From: Polyangium fumosum
GTDB taxonomy: Bacteria > Myxococcota_A > Polyangia > Polyangiales > Polyangiaceae
Direction: 5' to 3'
Assembly (NCBI RefSeq): GCF_005144585.1
Contig: NZ_SSMQ01000002.1
Location: 124,001 to 188,000 of the forward strand
Length of the DNA: 64,000 nucleotides
A program made the translations under genes and the position numbers. Under the pieces are notes generated by a model. It searched no databases and had not been told where the DNA came from. It was given only the letters and a program-made list of their open reading frames with translations. Positions 5,593-64,000 of this stretch are shown here, one piece after another; positions within the stretch are counted from its first letter, which is position 1; every line of letters begins with the position of its first letter.

Positions 5593-7218
5593 TCATTTCC
5601 TGGAATGGACGTTTTTCCCGCGCTTTCGCTCGGAGAGCGCCCAGCGGATGCCCATCTCCAGCGTCGAGCGGGTCACGAGCGTGCCGAGATCGAGCCCGAG
5701 CCCGACGATCGTGTGCGCGACGTCCGGGCGCAGGCCCGTGAGCAGCACCTCCGCCCCGAGCAGCCGCGCCGCCTGCGTCGCCGCCACGAGCGCGCTCGCC
5801 ACCTGCGCGTCCACGACGCCGACACCCGTCACGTCGAGGATCACCACCTCCGCCGCGTGCCGCACGATCCCTTCGAGCAGCGTCTCCAAGACCTGCCGCG
5901 CCCGCGCCGAATCGAGCACGCCCACGATGGGCATCGCGAGCACGCCGTGGCCAATCGGCACGAGCGGCGTCGAGAGCTCCCGCAGCGCCTCCGCCTGCCG
6001 CCGGATGAGCTCCGACGCCGCCCGCAGCTCGGTGATATCGCTCGCGAGCCCCACGACGCGCACGACCTGCCCCGACGCATCCTTCACTGGATACGCCCGA
6101 TCCCGCACCCAGCGAATCGTGCCGTCCGGCCGCACCACGCGATAATCGATGTCGTATCGCCCGAGCTCCTGCAGCGGCATGGCTTCCACGACGACCGCGC
6201 GATCGTCGGGGTGAATTGCGTCGAGGAACTGGAACCGTCTTTCGTAGAGCTCCGACCTCTGCCGGCCCCATACGGTTTCATAAGCCGGGCTCACGTAGAC
6301 GAGCGTGTTTCCATTCGCGTCCGTCATCCAGAAGACGTCGCTGATCGACTCGGCGAGGAGGCGGAACGTCTCTTCCCGCTCGGCGAGCGCGCGCGTGGCT
6401 TTTTGGGCCTCGGTGACGTCGCTGAGCGTCGCCACGTACTGCTCGACCACGTCGGCCTGGTCCCGCTGCACCATCACGCTGACCAGGAGCCACACGCGAT
6501 CGCCGATCTTCGGCCGATCCACGCCGATGATCATGGGCGAGACGGCCTCCCCCTTTCCGAGGGCGCGCGCCATGGGGGATTGGTCGGGGGGCAGGGGTTT
6601 GCCGTCCTCGCTCAGCATCGCCCAGCCCGGATCGTTCGGGGCGCGGCCGTGCATCTGCGCCTCGGTCATGCCGAGCATTTCGAGCGCGCGGCGGTTGACG
6701 AAGCGCATGTCTCCCCGCGGCCCCCGGATGACGAGGCCGATCTGAAGGTTCCGGAGCAGCACGTCGAAGCGCGACTCCATGGCCGTGAGATCCCGCGTCC
6801 TGCGGGCCACGGTGTCCTCGAGCTCGCGCCAGCGCGCCGACGTGTCGGTCATGTCGCGGCCGAGCGACACGACGAACGACACGCTGCCATCCGCGCCGCG
6901 CACCGGCGTGTAGCTCGTGTCGATGTAGGCGACTGCCCCCGCGCTGCCGCGGATCTTGTGCACCACCTGCACGATCTCGCCGCTCGAAAACGCGCGCTCC
7001 ACGCACTGCTCGATGCTCGCCGCCCGGTCCCCATAAAGATCCCGCGGCGACTTGCCCACGAGCCCCTCCGCATCCCACCCGAGCAGCCCACACGCCGCCG
7101 GGTTCGCATAGACGAACCGACGCGCCGTGTCGTAGACCACGCAGACATCCCTCGACTGCGCGAAATAAGAAGGCGCATCGAACGGGAGCGAGGCGGAAAC
7201 GATTGGAGGGGTGACCAT
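5593..7218 (-). CDS. PAS-PAS-PAS-STAS signalling protein (RsbR-like)
   Basis: A 541-residue soluble protein starting at MVTPPIVS. Three PAS domains follow one another (about residues 15-125, 145-265 and 285-400); the third ends with the PAC signature VKDASGQVVRVVGLASDIT. A short helix leads to a C-terminal STAS domain (about 425-535), beginning with the RsbR-type sequence LSTPLVPIGHGVLAMPIVG and carrying the ILDVTGVGVVD strand-turn. There is no kinase or output enzyme. Proteins of this layout act as sensory components of stressosome-like partner-switching modules, where PAS ligands alter a STAS domain that is phosphorylated by a partner kinase. No partner kinase or RsbT/RsbS gene is adjacent, so the partner is elsewhere. 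Confidence 0.9.
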   Translation of the reverse strand: MVTPPIVSASLPFDAPSYFAQSRDVCVVYDTARRFVYANPAACGLLGWDAEGLVGKSPRDLYGDRAASIEQCVERAFSSGEIVQVVHKIRGSAGAVAYIDTSYTPVRGADGSVSFVVSLGRDMTDTSARWRELEDTVARRTRDLTAMESRFDVLLRNLQIGLVIRGPRGDMRFVNRRALEMLGMTEAQMHGRAPNDPGWAMLSEDGKPLPPDQSPMARALGKGEAVSPMIIGVDRPKIGDRVWLLVSVMVQRDQADVVEQYVATLSDVTEAQKATRALAEREETFRLLAESISDVFWMTDANGNTLVYVSPAYETVWGRQRSELYERRFQFLDAIHPDDRAVVVEAMPLQELGRYDIDYRVVRPDGTIRWVRDRAYPVKDASGQVVRVVGLASDITELRAASELIRRQAEALRELSTPLVPIGHGVLAMPIVGVLDSARARQVLETLLEGIVRHAAEVVILDVTGVGVVDAQVASALVAATQAARLLGAEVLLTGLRPDVAHTIVGLGLDLGTLVTRSTLEMGIRWALSERKRGKNVHSRK

Positions 7219-10660: not shown

Positions 10661-11992
10661 TCAAGCGATGCCTGCCCCTTCGCAGATCCCCCGCACGATC
10701 GCCGCGTCACCCGCGCCGGGCGCGATCTCCACTGCCGCCTCGGGGTTGTCCGTCCTGAGGATTCGCAGCCCCCCCTCGCTCCCCGCGACCACCACGTGCG
10801 AAAACCGGTGCGCCGCTGCATATCGCAGGACGTCCGCCCCCGGCGCGCGCCACGCCGTCGCGATGCCTCGGGCCCGGAGCGCCGACGCCAGCGCTTCGCC
10901 CGGCGGATCCGCGGACACGAGCACCCGGAGGGGCCGCTCCTCCCGCACGCCCGCGGCTTCCCGCGCCCGCGCAATCGCGTCGAGGTGCAAGCCAAAGCCC
11001 ACCGCCTGCATGGGCAAACCAAAACGTTCGAGCAAATCGTCGTATCGACCGCCCGCCCCCACGGGCTCACCCGGCCCCGGCGCGAGCACGTGGAAAATCG
11101 GCCCCGTGTAATATGCGAAGCCCCGCACCTCGCCGAGATCGAGCCGCAAGACATCGCCGAGCCCGGCTGCGGACGTGCTCGGCCCGCGCGCCGTCTCCCA
11201 TAACGCCCGAAGCTCGCGCAGCGGCCCCTCCGCCCCCGTCCCCACGAAGAGTTTTTCCGCGCGGGAGAGAATCTCCTCGCCCGGCCGATCCTCCGCCCCG
11301 CCCGCGAGCTCCGGCAGCGCCACGAGCGCCTCCGCCACGCGCTTCGGCACCCCGGCCGCTTCCCGGCCCGAAAGCAGCGCGAGCAGCCGCGACGCGTCCT
11401 TTTGCGCCAGCGCGTCCGTCACCTCCACGTCGAGCGGCGACGGCACCACGTCGACCAGGGCGCGCGCGATGAGCGCGTGACCGAGGTCGATCACGAACGA
11501 CCCGAGGCCCACGGCCTGCGTCACCGACGCAAGGAGCCGCAGCGCTTCGAGGTCGCCCTCGGGCGAAGGCGCGCCGTAGAGCTCCACCCCGGCCTGCGGG
11601 ATTTGCCGGTGTTTTTTGGCCCGACCTTGGCGGCGCCGGACGATCGTCCCTTCGTAGCAGAGCCGGATCGGCGCGGGCTCCGCGGCGAGGCGCGTGGCCA
11701 CCATCCGCGCGATCTGCGGCGTCATGTCGGGACGGAGCGCGCACACCTCGCCGCTCTCCGGCTCCACGAAGCGAAGCACGTCGCCGGGATCGAGGGCCCC
11801 GAGGCCCTTTTCCAGCACCTCGGCCAGCTCGAACGCCGGCGGCGTCACGAGGTCGTAACCGTGCAGGGCGAAATGGTCGAGGAGGGTCCGGGCGAGCGCG
11901 CGCCGTCTCCTCGTCTCGTCCGGTAAGAGATCGCGCATCCCGGCGGGCAGCGGATGCGAGAGCGCCTTGGGCGGAGTGCCAGAACGGTCCAC
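10661..11992 (-). CDS. hisZ: ATP phosphoribosyltransferase regulatory subunit HisZ
   Basis: A 443-residue class II aminoacyl-tRNA-synthetase-like protein. The N-terminal LPAGMRDLLP, the RPDMTPQIAR motif 2 region and the GGRYDDLLERFG motif assign it to HisZ: true histidyl-tRNA synthetases have RPEGT and a C-terminal anticodon-binding domain, which here is replaced by a short Rossmann-like segment. HisZ binds the short form of HisG and makes it active and histidine-sensitive in the first step of histidine synthesis. The start is taken as GTG at 11992, since the conserved motif lies close to the N-terminus; the ATG at 11938 (MRDLLPDE) is a possible later start. No hisG or other his gene is adjacent. 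Its stop lies 3 bp from the 21-bp repeat array. Confidence 0.88.
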   Translation of the reverse strand: MDRSGTPPKALSHPLPAGMRDLLPDETRRRRALARTLLDHFALHGYDLVTPPAFELAEVLEKGLGALDPGDVLRFVEPESGEVCALRPDMTPQIARMVATRLAAEPAPIRLCYEGTIVRRRQGRAKKHRQIPQAGVELYGAPSPEGDLEALRLLASVTQAVGLGSFVIDLGHALIARALVDVVPSPLDVEVTDALAQKDASRLLALLSGREAAGVPKRVAEALVALPELAGGAEDRPGEEILSRAEKLFVGTGAEGPLRELRALWETARGPSTSAAGLGDVLRLDLGEVRGFAYYTGPIFHVLAPGPGEPVGAGGRYDDLLERFGLPMQAVGFGLHLDAIARAREAAGVREERPLRVLVSADPPGEALASALRARGIATAWRAPGADVLRYAAAHRFSHVVVAGSEGGLRILRTDNPEAAVEIAPGAGDAAIVRGICEGAGIA

Positions 11993-53646: not shown

Positions 53647-53770
53647 CGGCCCAGGTTTGGATCGGAATTTCCTGACGCACCAGCCCCATTTGCGCGCTCA
53701 CCGAGCAGGCCGGCGAGGTTCAGAGCGGATTTCGGGCGCGTGTGATTCGCGCCGTAGTACCCTCCGGGGC

Positions 53771-54859
53771 GTGCTCTCGCCCCACGAAGCCAGGCTCGGC
53801 GCGGCGCCGGCCATCTTCGACATGGATATCGGCACGGATCCGGACGATACGTGCGTTGCGGCGATGCTCGCCGCTCGGCCCGCACGCTTCCAGCCTGCCC
53901 TGCTCGTCACGAGCGACGAGACCCACGAACAAGGCCGCGCGCGTTTCCTCGCGGGGCTGCTGCGCGCCGCGGGGGTCGATCTTCCCGTCGCCGCGGGGCT
54001 ACCGAGCCTACGCCGTCGCGCCTCGTGCCTCGTGGAGGAGGCGGGGCTCGCGCGCGACGACGTGCCTTTCTCGCGCGACGCGGTCGGGGAGATCGTCCGT
54101 GTGCTCGATACGCATCCGCGGGTCGATTACGTGGGGCTCGGGCCGCTGACGAACCTCGACGCGGCGCTCTTGCGGAGGCCGGATCTCGCGGCGCGGGTGC
54201 GGCTCTTTCAAATGGGCCCGGCGCTCGCGGGGGCGTACCGGCGGGAAGCCGCGCAATACAATGCCCGCCTCGACCCTGGGGCGTTTGCGCGTGTGCTTGG
54301 GCAGGTGGAGGCGCCGCGGCTCTTGTTCAGCCATTCGAGCTGGGGGAGCTTCGGTGAGGGGATGCGGCAAAAGCTCGGGGTGTATCCGGACGATCCGCTC
54401 GCGGGTGCTTTGAGGAAAGCGCATCCGGCAGCGAGGATGTTCGTGCGGCATCTGGAGGCGTGGGTCGAGACGGGGAAGGATTGTTCGATCATGCACGACC
54501 CGCTCACGGTGCTGTCGGCGGCGCTGCCGGGGCTCGTGGATTTCGAGGAGGTCTCGCTCGTGCTGCGCGAGGACGGCTGGGTGGCGCTCACGGAAGCGGC
54601 GCATGGGGCGCTCGGGGCGAGGGCGCCGGCGCGCGGGAAGGTGATTGCGGGGGTTTTGGCGGGGCCATGGGCGCCCGTCGAGGGTCGGACGATCGAGGCG
54701 CGGATGTCGCTCGATACGGACGACGAGGCGGCCCGGCGAGCGATCGCGGAGGCGTTGCTCGGGGAGGAAGGGGCGCGGGTCGCGGAGGCTTGGGGGACGT
54801 GGAATCGGGGAGGTGGGACGTCGATGACGGGGGAGCGGGGTTCGATCTCGAAGGCGTGA
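53771..54859 (+). CDS. Inosine/uridine-preferring nucleoside hydrolase family protein
   Basis: A 362-residue protein with a GTG start giving MLSPHEARLG; the frame is open farther upstream over a divergent gene. The family hallmark is FDMDIGTDPDD near the N-terminus (residues about 15-25), where the Asp cluster binds the catalytic calcium. YVGLGPLTNLDAAL and CSIMHDPLTVLSA (second Asp-Pro motif) complete the site. Nucleoside hydrolases split nucleosides into base plus ribose for salvage. The substrate residues are not all conserved, so the exact nucleoside, or another N-glycosyl compound, is unclear. The last 15 residues look unstructured. Confidence 0.88.
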   Translation: MLSPHEARLGAAPAIFDMDIGTDPDDTCVAAMLAARPARFQPALLVTSDETHEQGRARFLAGLLRAAGVDLPVAAGLPSLRRRASCLVEEAGLARDDVPFSRDAVGEIVRVLDTHPRVDYVGLGPLTNLDAALLRRPDLAARVRLFQMGPALAGAYRREAAQYNARLDPGAFARVLGQVEAPRLLFSHSSWGSFGEGMRQKLGVYPDDPLAGALRKAHPAARMFVRHLEAWVETGKDCSIMHDPLTVLSAALPGLVDFEEVSLVLREDGWVALTEAAHGALGARAPARGKVIAGVLAGPWAPVEGRTIEARMSLDTDDEAARRAIAEALLGEEGARVAEAWGTWNRGGGTSMTGERGSISKA

Positions 54860-55042
54860 GCCTTCGATCACAGGTAATCCCGTAATTACGCCAGTCACGG
54901 TTCACGACGGCAGTCTGATCGGCCCGCCGAGCCCCGGTCGACGTCGCTCCCCATCTCCCTCTGAACACGCGTGCTCGGACCACTTTCGTCCTACCTCACG
55001 ATGGCACGCTTCATTTCACCGATCTCGTCGACAGCCGACCAT

Positions 55043-57286
55043 TTAACGCGATGTCCGAACCTGGATACGCGTCTGCGGCTGGATCGGTACCAGGACGTTG
55101 GCATAGGTACGCACGACGCGATCGTAGAGGTCGGTCACCTTGGGAGCCTTGAGCCCGACGACGAATGCGTACGGGATAGGCTGGGGGGCGGTGGCTTTCA
55201 TGCCGCTCTCGCGGTGATGGTAGTAGATGTCGAACAGCGGCGCCGACAATGAGCGTGCACGGAACGTCGCCTGGCTACGTAAACAGGGCTCCCACTTGTG
55301 CCCATCCTCGCGGAGTACCAGCTCAGGCTCACCGTAAAGCAGCGACTCAGAGAAAAACGCGCGCGTCTTCGCGTGCGTCGTCATCGTTCCGTCCGACCGC
55401 TTGCTGTACTTGCCGCTATGAGGCCGGAACGTGACCTCGAGCCCGCTCCGTGTGTACGCGCTTGGGTGCTCCGGGTCGACTTCGGGCGCAATGACGAGGG
55501 TGGCGGAGACGGTGACCTCGCCGGTGAGGGGAGTTTGGGGCATTGGGATCGGGGCCCGCAGATGCTCTCCGACGGGCAATTGGCCTTGGAACACCACAAG
55601 CGCCTCATCGTCGTCGCACGTGATCAGGCGCAGTGGATCCGACTCGATTCTGCCCCAACCAACCTCCTTCCAATCGTGCCCGTCCTCGATCTCTGCACGA
55701 TGAATCAATAGCGCGCGGATAGCGAGGGGAGAGAGGCGTTGCCCAAGTTGGGCCCGCACTGCTGCGGCAGAACGAAGCGCATACGGGGCAGCGTAGCTCG
55801 TACCCGATTCCTGGCCGCCCACCAACGTTGGCGTGAGCACGCCGAAATGCTCGAACGGCGAACCACCGAAAGCAATGCCATCCGGCTTCACGACCCCTGG
55901 GCAGCGCCCCGGACCGACGCAGCTATAGGACGCTCGCTGCCAGCCCGATGCACTACGGTCAGCCGCGCCCACGGACAACACGTTTACACCATCGGCGGGC
56001 GGCTGAATTCGATTCAGCTTTGCAGCGGGGTCGCGCTCGCCATCGTTACCGGCGGCGACAGTGGCCACGCAGCGACCGTGCGCAAAGCGCTTGTCAAGAG
56101 CTGCGGTCCAAAGCGTCACTTCGTCATCATCGACCGCGAGCGCGGGCCCGAGGCTCACGTTCACCAAGGTGTAGAGTCCGAGATTTCTATCGAGATGATC
56201 AACAATGCGATCGAGAACATCGAAGTAGTCGGTGTCATTCCCCGCGCCGGTCTTCTCGTCCAAAACGCGCACATGGTCGACCGTACACAGAGGGACGGCC
56301 GGCGTCTGACCTGAGCGAAGTGGGCCAAAGAGGAATGCAGTCGTAACGCCGAGCCCGTGCTCCTCGAAGGCTGGCGCTGCCTTTCCGATCCCGGGCGGAA
56401 CGATTAGATTAACCCAGGGCTTCAATGCTGCCTGGGCCTGGGCGGGAAGGCCGCCGTCGAAGATCACGGCGCGCATCTTCGCGTCGACAGGTCCTTCGGT
56501 CGGAAGCGTCACAGCGAACCCTGACACCCCCCGCAACACCGAGGGCCGAAAAGGCCGAAGCGATGGCATTCCGCGCGCGACGCGAACGAACGAAAAGCGG
56601 GCGATCTCCTCAGCCTTCTTGGGATCGACGCGTACAGGCATGAACGTTAGACCCCGCACGTCTCGCCGTCGAGCAATCAAGGGCTCCGCCCCATGAGCCT
56701 GCGCATACTGGATGAAGGCCAGTACCACGTCTTCGGCACCCGAGTTGTGGAGGACTACCTCAAGCACCGTACGGTCGTCGTCGGGAATGGAGCGAAGCTT
56801 CGTCTTGGCTTCAAACGCGGTGAGATCCTCGATGTGGCTCAGGTCGTCCGCGCCGCGAGTATCTGGCCGCCATCGCCTCACGGTGTTGGCCCAGCGCTCG
56901 AATGCGGTCTTCGCTCCGGCAACGAAGATGTCCTCCGTCACGCCAAATTCGCCGTGCTTTTGAACGCCCCACTGCTCAGGCTTCACGGTACGCGACCGAC
57001 TTCCTACGGCGCGAAGGCCCACGGCCGAGAACAGTTCGGACGGGAAGTCACTCTTTGATAGGTACCGCGGATGCAGAGTTACGACGGCGACCGCCTCGCC
57101 GCGCGGACATGCGTCTTCCGGAAGTTTCGCGATCTCCGCCTCGGCCGTCTGGAGTCGATCGGCGATGCGCGCCTTAGCAGTTGGGAAGTCGTAGGGAGGA
57201 TTCTTTGTTCCGCCAGCCTTCTTGATCGTCACCTTCTGTGCGAGCCGCTCGCCCTGGCCAAGAAGGAAGTTGTGTTCGCGTGCCAT
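55043..57286 (-). CDS. ietS: Subtilisin-like (S8) protease of an IetAS-type anti-phage/anti-plasmid system
   Basis: A 747-residue S8 protease without signal peptide, so cytoplasmic. The N-terminal 260 residues are a non-peptidase region that probably serves recognition or inhibition. The protease core has the complete triad: Asp277 (VIFDGGL), His310 (EEHGLG), Ser497 (SGTSYAAP), and the oxyanion Asn414 (AAGNDG). A C-terminal beta-rich region follows. The ATG overlaps the ATPase stop by one base (TAATG) and its Shine-Dalgarno AAGGAGG lies in the ATPase coding sequence, so translation is coupled. The pairing with the next gene matches IetAS, known from Agrobacterium as a plasmid-blocking pair and listed among tested anti-phage systems. 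Confidence 0.85.
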   Translation of the reverse strand: MAREHNFLLGQGERLAQKVTIKKAGGTKNPPYDFPTAKARIADRLQTAEAEIAKLPEDACPRGEAVAVVTLHPRYLSKSDFPSELFSAVGLRAVGSRSRTVKPEQWGVQKHGEFGVTEDIFVAGAKTAFERWANTVRRWRPDTRGADDLSHIEDLTAFEAKTKLRSIPDDDRTVLEVVLHNSGAEDVVLAFIQYAQAHGAEPLIARRRDVRGLTFMPVRVDPKKAEEIARFSFVRVARGMPSLRPFRPSVLRGVSGFAVTLPTEGPVDAKMRAVIFDGGLPAQAQAALKPWVNLIVPPGIGKAAPAFEEHGLGVTTAFLFGPLRSGQTPAVPLCTVDHVRVLDEKTGAGNDTDYFDVLDRIVDHLDRNLGLYTLVNVSLGPALAVDDDEVTLWTAALDKRFAHGRCVATVAAGNDGERDPAAKLNRIQPPADGVNVLSVGAADRSASGWQRASYSCVGPGRCPGVVKPDGIAFGGSPFEHFGVLTPTLVGGQESGTSYAAPYALRSAAAVRAQLGQRLSPLAIRALLIHRAEIEDGHDWKEVGWGRIESDPLRLITCDDDEALVVFQGQLPVGEHLRAPIPMPQTPLTGEVTVSATLVIAPEVDPEHPSAYTRSGLEVTFRPHSGKYSKRSDGTMTTHAKTRAFFSESLLYGEPELVLREDGHKWEPCLRSQATFRARSLSAPLFDIYYHHRESGMKATAPQPIPYAFVVGLKAPKVTDLYDRVVRTYANVLVPIQPQTRIQVRTSR

Positions 57287-58410
57287 TACTCTTGAGCCTC
57301 CTTGTGATTACCTACTGGCCGTCGCGTCTTCGAGCCGCCGAGGTGCTTTCGAATCGTGTCGCGCGAAAGCCCGGTGAGCGCCGAAATCTCGCGCTGCGAG
57401 CGACCGGCGGTCGTAAGCTCAGAGGCGACCCGCAGCTTGACCTCCAGATCGGCACTCTGCGCGAGCTCGCCGAGGACCTCTGCGATCGTTTCAGAAAACT
57501 GAACTTGGCGCACTATAGCTGCGCGCTTGGCGGAAGTTACGACCCGAACGACATTGTCGAAGGAACGACCGTGGAGAAGCGCGGCCAGAATGTCTAGGTT
57601 CGGTTTCGAGATCCCTTTGTCACCCACGAGACGGACGACCAGATCGCGGATGCCCTGAACCGACGGCGGAGGGAAATCGACAATGCGATCGAATCGTCGC
57701 CACACCGCTGGATCGAGAAGCTCTGGATGGTTCGTCGCTGCGATGAGCACGCCGGCTTCTGGCCAATCATCAACCGCCTGCAGAAGGACAGTGACCAGCC
57801 GCTTGAGTTCGCCCACCTCAGTGGCGTCGTCCCTCCGCTTCGCAATGGCGTCGAATTCGTCGAGCAACAACACCGCAGGCGCTCTGCGCGCGAAGTCCAG
57901 CACGACGCGGATGTTGTTCCCGGTGCGCCCGAGGAAGCTGCTCATCACCGCCGCGAGATCGAGCGTCAGGAGCGGGCGGCGTAGTTGGACGGCGAGCCAG
58001 CGCGCGGCAAGCGTCTTGCCAACACCAGGTGGCCCGACGAACAGGAGTGACCGGGTCGGCGCTATGCCAGCATCAACGAGCCGGTCGATTCGTTCACGCT
58101 CGTGGAGGACTGCTTCTAACTCCTTGCGTACGGCGGGAGGCCAGATCGGCTCGATCGGCAGGTGCGGCGTTGGTTCACGTCGAAGGAGTTCCAGCCGGCT
58201 ATCGAGGTCCACGGGCAGGGGCTGCGGCTCAAGTGCGCGAGCGGGACTGGCCGAGGCGGTGCGAAGGATCGTCTGGGCAGCCTCGGCAAGATCGGGGCGA
58301 CGATCAGCGATGACGCGGAGCAGGCGTCGTGCCAAGGCGGCGACGTCGTCCACCTTTCCACCCAGGCTCAACCGAACGAGGTGGACTACATCTCTTTCGA
58401 AATCACTCAT
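57286..58410 (-). CDS. ietA: AAA ATPase of an IetAS-type system, with C-terminal helix-turn-helix
   Basis: A 374-residue AAA protein starting at MSDFERD. An N-terminal helical part (about 1-85) is followed by the AAA module: Walker A GPPGVGKT (126-133), Walker B LLLDEFDAI (181-189), sensor Asn227, and the arginine-finger region RRF at 238-240. The C-terminal 50 residues contain a helix-turn-helix-like unit (AGRSQREISALTGLSRDTIR, about 335-354), suggesting DNA binding or autoregulation. IetA-type ATPases regulate or deliver substrates to the partner protease. The start is preceded by GGTGGG. The open frame continues upstream only because of the repeat array. Confidence 0.85.
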   Translation of the reverse strand: MSDFERDVVHLVRLSLGGKVDDVAALARRLLRVIADRRPDLAEAAQTILRTASASPARALEPQPLPVDLDSRLELLRREPTPHLPIEPIWPPAVRKELEAVLHERERIDRLVDAGIAPTRSLLFVGPPGVGKTLAARWLAVQLRRPLLTLDLAAVMSSFLGRTGNNIRVVLDFARRAPAVLLLDEFDAIAKRRDDATEVGELKRLVTVLLQAVDDWPEAGVLIAATNHPELLDPAVWRRFDRIVDFPPPSVQGIRDLVVRLVGDKGISKPNLDILAALLHGRSFDNVVRVVTSAKRAAIVRQVQFSETIAEVLGELAQSADLEVKLRVASELTTAGRSQREISALTGLSRDTIRKHLGGSKTRRPVGNHKEAQE

Positions 58411-58615
58411 TTGGCCCACCGATGAGTCTTCATCATCTCCGGGGCTTGTAGCACGAGTGGACCAGACATGGCAAGACGGTCGTAACATCGGCCATGCTGA
58501 ACGTTCGACCTGTCTGCATGCTGATGCGAGCCGTGGACGACAACTGTCACGGGTCGGCCCGACTAGTCCACTCCCTCCGGCGATGAGATGGGAAATGGCG
58601 GACGCCGCAAGAGCG

Positions 58616-59024
58616 CCTCGATCTCGACCTCTCCGACTTCGATCTCGACCTCCTGGACTTCGATCTCGGAGTCCGAGGACTTCGATCACGAGCTCGCCGA
58701 CTTCGATCACAGAGTCCTTGGTCTTCGATCACGGGCTCGCCGACTTCGATCACGGAGTCCTTGGTCTTCGATCACGAACTCGCCGGCTTCGATCACGGAC
58801 TCCTCGGTCTTCGATCACGGAGTCCTTGGTCTTCGATCACGAACTCGCCGGCTTCGATCACGGACTCCTTGGTCTTCGATCACGAACTCGCCGGCTTCGA
58901 TCACGGACTCCTCGGTCTTCGATCACGAACTCGCCGGCTTCGATCACGGACTCCTCGGTCTTCGATCACGAACTCGCCGGCTTCGATCACGGACTCCTCG
59001 GTCTTCGATCACGAGGTCGTGGCC
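58616..59024. repeat. Minisatellite: about 19 units alternating 21 and 22 bp
   Basis: Nineteen head-to-tail units. A 21-bp type beginning CTTCGATCACGAACTCGCC alternates with a 22-bp type beginning CTTCGATCACGGACTCCT, so the true period is 43 bp. Alternation breaks once, at 58787-58830, where two 22-bp units are adjacent. The leftmost units (58616-58679) are degenerate (GATCTC instead of GATCAC). Each 21-bp unit contains the dyad TTCG-ATCA-CGAA. Because 43 is not a multiple of 3, three frames are translated in turn without stops; this is not evidence of coding. The array ends 205 bp before the ietA start codon and 43 bp before the rightward lipoprotein start. Confidence 0.95.
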
Positions 59025-59066
59025 CTTCGTCGACGAGCTCCCGGGCATCGGGCGTATGATTTGGGC

Positions 59067-59520
59067 ATGAATCATTTGGCTCCTTTCTGGAAGAGCCTCG
59101 CGCATCGCATCGCGGCCAGCGTGGGGGTCACGTTCGTCATCACAGCGGCGCTCGCGGGTTGCGGGCGCCAAGGTCGTCGTCGATCCGGAAGGCACGGGCG
59201 GCACGGGCACGGGTGGACCCACGTCGTCGAATGGGACGACGGGGCCCGGACCCACGTCATCGTCGTCGGGCACGATGACGTGCGGGGGAACGGGGCAGAT
59301 CCAGCCGTTCCTCGCGTGCTTCGAGCCAGGGGCGAGCGGTTGTCCCAGCAAGGAGGACGCGGCAGGACCGATCGCGGTGGCTTACGACTTCGGGTGCACG
59401 TGCCAACTCACGGACATGTGCTTTTGCCTCGGCTCGGTGAACGACGGGCCGAAGCCGGATCCGAGCGGCAACGGCCTCTGCTGTTACGACACGATGATCA
59501 AGCTCACGTGCGTCGTCTGA
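59067..59520 (+). pseudogene. Lipoprotein gene split by a one-base frameshift
   Basis: The first frame starts at ATG 59067 and encodes a signal peptide ending in the lipobox ALAGCG. Just after, near 59158-59172, the reading frame must move forward by one base (one extra C in TGCGGGCGCC) to continue as GAKVVVDPEGTGGTGTGG, a typical linker, and the Cys-rich domain (CFEPGASGCPSKEDA, CTCQLTDMCFCLG, CCYDTM) to the stop at 59520. Without the shift the first frame turns into an Arg-rich nonsense stretch. The intact protein would be about 150 residues with eleven Cys. A sequencing error, a recent mutation or programmed shifting are all possible. Confidence 0.7.
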
Positions 59521-59589
59521 AGGGCCCTGCCGTCCAGCCCGTCCTCGTCGAGGTTGAGCTTGTCCCAAGTGACGACTAGCTTCCGCGGC

Positions 59590-61398
59590 ATGTCCGACGC
59601 CTGGCTCGACCTCGCCCTCGTCCGCGCCCGCCTGAACGGCCCCGACGAGGACGCTCTCCGCAGCTCCTTCAAGCACGACAACGAGGCCCACGCAGCGACC
59701 CTCCTCGCCCTCGATGACGCCGAGCGCGTCGGCCTCCTCACGCGCTCGAAAGGGGGGTACGCGGGCGGCGCCTTCCAGCGCGCCTTGAACCAGCTCTCGG
59801 TCGCGTGGCTGAAGACCCGGCCGCGCGACGCGATCGTGCTCTTCGATGCGCTCCTCCAGGTGAAGAACTCCGACCTCGCCACGTACTGCAATGCGCTGTG
59901 GGCCGTGCAGGACGACAACACGCACCTCGGCAAGGATCCCGCGCGCGCCCGCACGTACTTCGCCGCCTGCCTCCCCCACGGCCCGGAGAACCCCGCAATC
60001 TTCTTCAATGCCGCGTGTGTCGCCCTCGAGCTCGACGACCTCGACGCCGCGCTCGGCTTCGTCAAGGACGCGGTGCGCTTCGGGTACGACGGGCGCGAGA
60101 AGATGCGGACGGCCTTCCGCACCGAGGCGTTTTTCGCGAAGATCCGCGACGACCGCCGCTTCTTCGACGCGCTCGACGACCGCGGCCCGCAAGGCGTCGC
60201 GCTGGTCGAGCGCGTGATTGCGAAGGTCCAGGAGAAAGGCTGGCCGGCGGTCGGCATCGAGGTCGCGAAGAAAAAGAAGAAGGACGCCTGGCCGAAGCAC
60301 GACAAGGACTTCCGCCCGCTCTCGCCGGAGGTCCTCGGCGCGCTCACGCTCCCGAACGGCGCGCCGCTGCCGCAAAGCCTCCGGACGTGGCTCGCGTTCG
60401 ACGCGCAATGGCTCGCGGCGCTCGGCTGGTTCGAGCTCACGCCGGCCTTCCGGTGGACGTCGCGATCGCTCGAAGCCATCGCGAAGGACGAATTCGGCGA
60501 TATGGGCGAGCCGTCCTCCGATCCCGAGCCGGACGCGGAGGCCACGAAGTCCTGGGCGGACTTTTTCGCCGTGCCGGCGATGGAGCACGGGTTCCTCGTG
60601 CCCGGCGGGAGCGAGCATCGCCGCGTGTGGATGCTCTCGAAGGAGCCGGATTGCGAAGGCGACTATCCGGTCCTCTACATCGACATCGACGACGTGCCCT
60701 CGCTCGGGCCGATGTACCCGGGCTTCGACGTGTGGCTCGCGCAGGAGGCGAACGTCATCGGCATCCGGTACGAGACGTATTCGAGCGGATTCGATGATTT
60801 CCGCTTCGCCTCCCGCCTCCGGCACCATGCGCGGACGATGTGCGACGGCGCAATGTACGTGCAATGCCCGGGGATGGTGCTGGGCGTCTCGACCCCGGAC
60901 GACGGTGTCGCGGTTTTGCTCGACCGGGACGACTGGTTCGAGCGTCTCCTCGCGCTGCGAACGTCGCTCCTTCCGGACGACGACGCGCCGATCCGCGGCG
61001 CGTCGGCGGAGGACCTCGCCTGGCTACAAGCGCACCTCGGCGCTCCCCTGCCCCCCGCCGTCGTGCGTTTCTACGAGCGGGTGAATGGGCTGTCGTGGGG
61101 GATGTTCCGTTTCCTCTCGATCGACGAGATCCGCGACCGCGCGGCGCAGGAGAGCTTGTTCGGAGAGACGAGCCCGCCGTCCGCTCCGTTCGCCGTTCTC
61201 ATCACGCAGCCCAAAGGGGCCGACCGATTCGTTCTTCTGTCGGAGGAGGGGATCGTCGATGGATACCGCTTCGCGTACGACGATCTCTCCCTCGCGTCGC
61301 CGAAGTTGAGCATCGAAGGCACGATCGAGATCCTGCGGCATGCGGCGTTGTTCGCCGGGGTGGAGGAGGACGACGAGGACGAGGGCGACGAGGACTGA
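59590..61398 (+). CDS. SUKH (SMI1/KNR4) domain protein with TPR-like N-terminal part
   Basis: A 602-residue cytoplasmic protein. The ATG at 59590 is used; a TTG 12 codons upstream is unlikely. The N-terminal 190 residues are helical and TPR-like (NPAIFFNAACVALELDDLDA). A linker with a KKKKK cluster leads to a central alpha/beta domain rich in aromatic residues (DVWLAQEANVIGIRYETY). The C-terminal domain (about 470-585) is SUKH: EEDLAWLQAHLGAPLPPAVV, FYERVNGLSWGMFRFLSIDE. SUKH proteins often act as immunity proteins to polymorphic toxins, but long multidomain versions like this are also common in myxobacteria. No toxin gene is adjacent. The acidic C-terminus (EEDDEDEGDED) is notable. Confidence 0.8.
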   Translation: MSDAWLDLALVRARLNGPDEDALRSSFKHDNEAHAATLLALDDAERVGLLTRSKGGYAGGAFQRALNQLSVAWLKTRPRDAIVLFDALLQVKNSDLATYCNALWAVQDDNTHLGKDPARARTYFAACLPHGPENPAIFFNAACVALELDDLDAALGFVKDAVRFGYDGREKMRTAFRTEAFFAKIRDDRRFFDALDDRGPQGVALVERVIAKVQEKGWPAVGIEVAKKKKKDAWPKHDKDFRPLSPEVLGALTLPNGAPLPQSLRTWLAFDAQWLAALGWFELTPAFRWTSRSLEAIAKDEFGDMGEPSSDPEPDAEATKSWADFFAVPAMEHGFLVPGGSEHRRVWMLSKEPDCEGDYPVLYIDIDDVPSLGPMYPGFDVWLAQEANVIGIRYETYSSGFDDFRFASRLRHHARTMCDGAMYVQCPGMVLGVSTPDDGVAVLLDRDDWFERLLALRTSLLPDDDAPIRGASAEDLAWLQAHLGAPLPPAVVRFYERVNGLSWGMFRFLSIDEIRDRAAQESLFGETSPPSAPFAVLITQPKGADRFVLLSEEGIVDGYRFAYDDLSLASPKLSIEGTIEILRHAALFAGVEEDDEDEGDED

Positions 61399-61428
61399 GG
61401 GCGTCTTTGCTGCTATCTGTAGGGAGTC

Positions 61429-62449: not shown

Positions 62450-63128
62450 TCACAGCTTCTTCGATACGTCGAGCGCGCCCGAGAGGAGCTGCGGGAGGAG
62501 CGCGTCGCGGATGCTCGAAAGGCGTCGGTTTTGCGCCTGGAGCGCGACCATCGCCTCGGGGCGCGTGACGGATTGTTCGAGCGGGAGGCCGAGGAGCGCG
62601 GCGAATTGGAGGGCGCTCAGGACTTCAATGATACGATCCTGGACATCCAGCGGGGGCACGGCGAGCTCGAATTCGAAGAGGTCGCTCTGGTAAAGCTCCG
62701 GGTACGTCGAGCCGTTCGCCACCTTGTCGAGGTAAGGCCGGTTCGCGCGCAGCCAATATGCGAGGTAGAGCGGGCGCAAGGCCGGGCCGCAGCGGAAGTT
62801 CAAAAAACCCTGGTTCGTCGCCATCGGGACGGCATTCACGGCGACGGCCCCGACCGGCGCGCGTTTGCTCAGCATGACGGTCCCGGGGGGCAGGAGCTTC
62901 GCCGAGGAGTGTTCCAGGCCGAGCTGCGTGATCGAGCGCTCCGTGCGTGAGACGAAGAGGCCGTCCTGCAGGCTCGTGATTTCTTTTGGCGTGAGCCAGG
63001 GGAGGTCGCCGTCCCAGTAGGCGTCAACGGACGTGCTCGGCGTGCCGCCGCTGTCGACGCGCGTGATCAAGTCTCCGTCCGGCTCCAGCGTGCTCCGGCG
63101 CCAGCTCTTCGGGCAGATCAAATACGGC

Positions 63129-63136
<8 letters not shown>
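62450..63136 (-). CDS. hsdS: Type I restriction-modification specificity subunit, half-length (single TRD)
   Basis: A 228-residue HsdS beginning at GTG inside the hsdM stop (8-bp overlap). It contains only one target recognition domain, opened by the classical [21 protein letters not shown] motif, followed by one conserved helical spacer and the normal C-terminal phrase [14 protein letters not shown]. Full HsdS proteins are about 400 residues with two recognition domains; this one would have to dimerise to contact both halves of a bipartite site, giving a symmetric target. Because start and end are both canonical, it is probably a natural half-HsdS rather than a truncation. It is coupled to hsdM by overlap. 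Confidence 0.88.

Positions 63137-64000
<864 letters not shown>

Follow-up and report, generated by a model that had tools for sequence, protein, structure and literature searches.

Non-coding bacterial satellites of constant unit size and variable sequence are the closest described relatives of the array considered here. A 2020 survey by Subirana and Messeguer in the Journal of Bacteriology reportedly included satellites of 22/44 and 52 nt. Work by these authors describes such satellites in Bacillus, with units of 20–21 nt and 52 nt (PMC8161180), suggests a part for nucleoid proteins or small RNAs, and points to two helical turns (PMC8161180, PMC8625621). Set beside those satellites, the arrays of Polyangium are likewise non-coding, fixed in unit size and divided into several unrelated families per genome, and also resemble them in having a short conserved core, positions partly kept between relatives, and a unit near two helical turns. 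They differ from those satellites in the working period of the family studied here, which is 43 bp built from alternating 21 and 22, in the further steps of the Polyangium ladder (64/65, 85/86 and 127), and in their occurrence in Polyangium, where one array has probably been split by a defence cassette. Constant-size satellites are non-coding tandem arrays of at least four units; this one has 19 units at a period of 43, which three does not divide, and within one genome unrelated families have the same unit size. With a satellite size of 20–23 (or 44, 52) nt its half-units of 21 and 22 agree, but the period that repeats is 43 and the ladder includes other steps. The array represents a variant of these satellites, distinguished by a unit composed of 21+22 and by a ladder of periods.

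Two better-known classes of direct repeat invite comparison. Plasmid iterons are direct repeats of about 21–22 bp that lie on one helical face, a length that the array shares, but the Polyangium arrays are chromosomal and dispersed across many loci, and no replication initiator was found among the six neighbouring proteins scanned. CRISPR arrays are also direct repeats at regular spacing; here, in contrast, the alternating 22-bp unit is alike throughout, and a CRISPR assignment was rejected because none of the arrays read carries unique spacers. Literature searches on tandem repeats, minisatellites or satellites in Polyangium, Sorangium or the myxobacteria turned up nothing on such arrays.

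The window, meaning the whole 64-kb stretch of DNA that was analysed, holds the features listed in Table 1. TRF reports the main array at period 43 with 9.2 copies and 88% matches, and a unit-by-unit walk places the unit starts at 58617, 58638, 58659, 58681 and onward to 59004, with the spacings 21, 21, 22, 21, 22, 21, 22, 21, 22, 22, 21, 22 and so on. These results bear out the original prediction of nineteen units alternating between 21 and 22 bp at a 43-bp, four-turn spacing. They also reproduce the predicted break in alternation, two consecutive 22-bp spacings at 58788–58831, to which the walk adds a 21-21 opening. The window contains the word CTTCGATCAC 17 times, with 16 of the copies inside the main array, against an expectation of 0.25. 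From the start of IetA (58410) to the next ATG (59067) is a gap of 656 bp, of which the array takes up 409. Its G+C content is 59.4%, compared with 68.5% for the window. The TTCG-N4-CGAA dyad that had been described in every 21-bp unit as a plausible protein-binding core does exist, but in only five of nine such units, and in the majority of the family's other arrays CGATCACGGG stands in its place; the dyad is therefore not a conserved core. A 21-bp array at the left of the window is possibly a remote relative belonging to the class of the main array.

Table 1. Features of the window discussed in the text (window coordinates)
Feature	Position	Strand	Basis or context
21-bp array, 17.3 copies, unit GGCGTCCACGAGGTCCGGGAA	10278..10641	+	Gap before gene at 10661
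Nucleoside hydrolase gene, 3' end running into array remnant	53657..54859	+	Protein family scan, G284 comparison
Whole segment absent from G284	54818..59540	.	G284 junction at L125 3543/3545
Left-hand array remnant, three unit starts, spacings 21 and 22, orientation of main array	54820..54875	+	Strict two-unit pattern, looser unit scan
Segment between array pieces, carrying ietS and ietA; probable insertion into array	54876..58616	.	Locus comparison, remnant
ietS, subtilase	55043..57286	-	PADLOC model 9e-43
ietA, AAA+ ATPase	57286..58410	-	PADLOC model 4e-81
Main array, 43-bp period, 19 units of alternately 22 and 21 bp	58617..59025	+	TRF, unit-by-unit spacing walk
Putative lipoprotein gene, one-base length difference from G285 relative	59067..59520	+	Locus comparison
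SMI1/KNR4-domain gene, right-hand anchor of locus	59554..61398	+	Protein family scan, locus comparison

The sequence of the main array belongs to a dispersed family. BLASTN returned 18 matches in its own genome (12.98 Mb in 201 contigs), and a tandem pattern that tolerated two mismatches at most found 59 matches over nine contigs, with none for the reversed control pattern. The family arrays that were read have a 43-bp period made of two unlike halves, and the family has a short common core, CGATCACG. In those walked unit by unit (15 entered, with only two units readable in L108), alternation holds for 197 of 205 pairs of consecutive spacings and the exceptions are single-unit steps, which supports stepwise change by whole units. 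The family is essentially limited to its genus: among 317 genomes of the class, the pattern matched four of the six Polyangium genomes and one of another genus, the latter through one single hit with two mismatches, and BLASTN with the locus found family arrays in five of the six Polyangium genomes, all except G286. A Pseudonocardia contig and a Microvirga contig gave one pattern hit each. A Myxococcales metagenome contig (L075) carries two 43-bp arrays of unrelated sequence, at 6276–6636, found through the pattern, and at 1–103, which the pattern did not find. Two further array families searched across the genus are dispersed as well, one in four and the other in all six genomes.

Lying upstream of ietA and made of phased direct repeats, the array could be taken for an operator used by IetA, or by some other regulator, to control ietAS. 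The identity of the ietA-ietS pair, as originally named, is upheld by PADLOC, and a C-terminal helix-turn-helix in IetA, also claimed, has only a sub-threshold Pfam match (19.6 bits against a cut-off of 25), a weakness that counts against the operator reading. The proposed link between array and ietA fails on distribution. IetS relatives are absent from the other five Polyangium genomes, leaving IetS in one of six, whereas the array family occurs in genomes without IetS; G282 carries an array in the same slot without ietAS; and remnant units stand past the 3' end of ietS. The operator reading is thus extremely improbable, rejected on array distribution and locus history, and the window array is very probably not an ietA operator. 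A protein may bind its units. The search for IetA relatives returned matches in all 14 control genomes, as its shared AAA domain would lead one to expect, and in the own genome only two matches span most of the model. Another gene resembling ietA, containing a single in-frame stop, lies at G000:C182:27932-28912 of that genome, which holds no second IetS.

Comparison of the locus between genomes indicates how the array and ietAS came together. In G284, the nucleoside hydrolase gene (window 53726–54817) directly abuts the SMI1/KNR4 gene (59541–61417), with no ietAS, array or lipoprotein gene between them. G282 has another gene in this slot, together with a 21-bp array of the window's family, and it too lacks ietAS. 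In the window, the unit starts of the left-hand remnant, at 54820–54872, follow directly behind the conserved part of the hydrolase gene. The strict two-unit pattern matches exactly at 54841–54871, its sole match outside the main array in 64 kb (0.00 expected). A high-threshold scan for isolated units had missed the remnant; a looser scan, with a background of 49 pairs in 3.2 million strand-bases, found three consecutive unit starts. Since three units survive on the far side of ietAS, the segment carrying it was most likely inserted into an array that already stood behind the hydrolase gene. The alternative, that two arrays of a single family arose independently 3.7 kb from each other, is unlikely given a total of roughly nine in 13 Mb. 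The lipoprotein gene to the right, described earlier as frameshifted, does carry one extra G early in its frame from 59067 relative to the 89% identical G285 relative; a real frameshift and an assembly error would both explain it. Type I restriction specificity and methyltransferase genes at 62450–63998, near ietAS, give the region the look of a small defence neighbourhood. Further 21-bp arrays lie near the locus beside other variable segments (G284 L125 7071–7380 and G285 L131 9760–10024).

The feature that unites these arrays is their period. It was examined in 80 stretches of 20 kb across the near-complete G282 genome (1.6 Mb, 7,500 bases masked), counting as strong the arrays with score and length of at least 100 and a fundamental period indivisible by three, a condition that leaves out simple peptide repeats. 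All 20 strong arrays in this sample have periods of 43, 64, 65, 85, 86 or 127, and many of them are unrelated in sequence. The ladder is stable over five looser and stricter thresholds, with a single exception at period 41. G286, despite lacking the window's family, has all four of its arrays on the ladder (43 or 86). None of three arrays is on it in 200 kb sampled from G297, a 14.78-Mb genome of another genus of the family, a contrast between genera that is thin with three comparison arrays. In a wider set of the sample, the window and 26 loci that had been picked for arrays or flanks, 43 arrays fall on the ladder and three off it (50, 52 and 88), and clustering on shared 9-mers divides the 43 into 17 sequence families. 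At a density of some 21 ladder arrays per 1.6 Mb, G282 as a whole would hold about 170, a figure obtained by arithmetic and not by counting. The period is fixed near 21.4 bp or a multiple of it, mostly 43, regardless of sequence, and the window array can be assigned with high confidence to this genome-wide class of non-coding Polyangium satellites. Ladder arrays measure 128 to 469 bp and none is longer; other arrays in the same loci reach 1389 bp.

Because periods near 21.4 bp or its multiples recur in differing sequences, DNA shape or a DNA-bound protein, and not a neighbouring gene, is suggested as the setter of the spacing. The period would be set on double-stranded DNA every two to four turns, by a putative bound, nucleoid-associated protein or by helical phase, either while units are amplified or while arrays are retained; arrays would afterwards lengthen and shorten by whole units and seed copies elsewhere. 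A fixed-period satellite class with its period set at the DNA level is the best overall explanation, held at about even confidence, and the protein or helix mechanism itself is put forward tentatively, slightly below that. Ten 43-bp families other than the window's show excess purine/pyrimidine power at 10.75 bp (2.31 versus 1.03, p 0.0017). The other nine harmonics show no such excess, and arrays of other periods give no 10.75-bp signal (0.80 versus 0.80); the spectral test took in three ways of grouping the bases and as many as ten harmonics, which makes the purine result exploratory. The window unit has no 10.75-bp purine signal (1.3) and peaks instead at 7.17 bp (5.6), which counts against a phased protein, as does the fact that no candidate protein has been named. 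Amplification starting at 43 predicts an excess of two-copy 43-bp duplications outside arrays; none was seen once masked stretches, which gave false counts, were left out, and this also weighs against the best explanation.

The same data bear on the possibility that the arrays are neutral minisatellites, functionless products of slippage or unequal exchange at a step size favoured by the replication or repair machinery. The ratio of indels to substitutions is equal in arrays (26/1011) and in aligned non-coding DNA (18/663, a low estimate, as the control comes from local alignments). The period thus looks set when an array forms and not guarded later, bearing in mind the downward bias of the control, and selection keeping the spacing after array birth was dismissed on this ground; the equal ratio also counts against a phased protein as the setter of the period. 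A neutral origin would fit this ratio, as well as gain and loss of arrays between species, steps of whole units, and the start of many arrays just past a stop codon, the least harmful place (gene calls are approximate). Simple slippage, however, is not expected to produce a sequence-independent ladder, two-copy stages are few, and array lengths are confined to 128–469 bp. Neutral minisatellites are a doubtful reading, though a credible one.

A role at the RNA level has been proposed for the 52-nt satellites of Bacillus coagulans (PMC8161180, PMC8625621), and the Polyangium arrays, too, might be transcribed and act as repeat RNAs, sponging a protein or mRNA. Many arrays lie directly downstream of genes, which makes read-through likely; they are commoner in tandem or convergent gaps, not clearly above background, according to a crude gene caller that mislabelled the window's own left neighbour. 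When 17 families were folded, no signal emerged (mean z -0.6 and -0.4, the window family scoring +0.5/+0.3), and the arrays have no Rfam match. These results favour DNA over RNA and make repeat RNAs very unlikely. An RNA hairpin or terminator repeat was rejected, as no stable hairpin per unit appeared in these 17 families.

Arrays of this class keep their places in part and turn over in part. All six alignable array slots of the window's genome hold an array in G282 too. Four other species lack both the array of the C11 locus and the genes that follow it. From G285 the L111 array and its short flanks (429 bp) are absent, leaving an empty site that lies after a stop codon and before the following gene. 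Arrays might also serve as landing pads for accessory cassettes, through recombination between or within them. Units flank ietAS on both sides, and a multi-kb insert in one genome occurs in three of six array gaps between the window's genome and G282, compared with six of 46 other gaps (p 0.057), where the six non-array gaps with inserts were identified by eye; the share of array gaps rises to four of six when a synteny end is included (p 0.009). The numbers are small, variable slots have other explanations, and the loci scanned held no second clearly split array, so that landing pads are quite improbable. A broader proposal is also unlikely: that one putative DNA-wrapping protein, reading helical purine/pyrimidine phase and not sequence, quantises well over a hundred satellites at about 21.4 bp, and that the arrays double as recombination landing pads for cassettes such as ietAS.

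The locus illustrates that a repeat adjoining a defence pair is not necessarily its regulator. For the question of why some bacteria retain non-coding satellites whose size is fixed while their sequence is free, Polyangium offers a sharp case, with a period ladder, six species for comparison and empty sites. Dozens of unrelated Polyangium arrays could be used in parallel as baits for a common protein.
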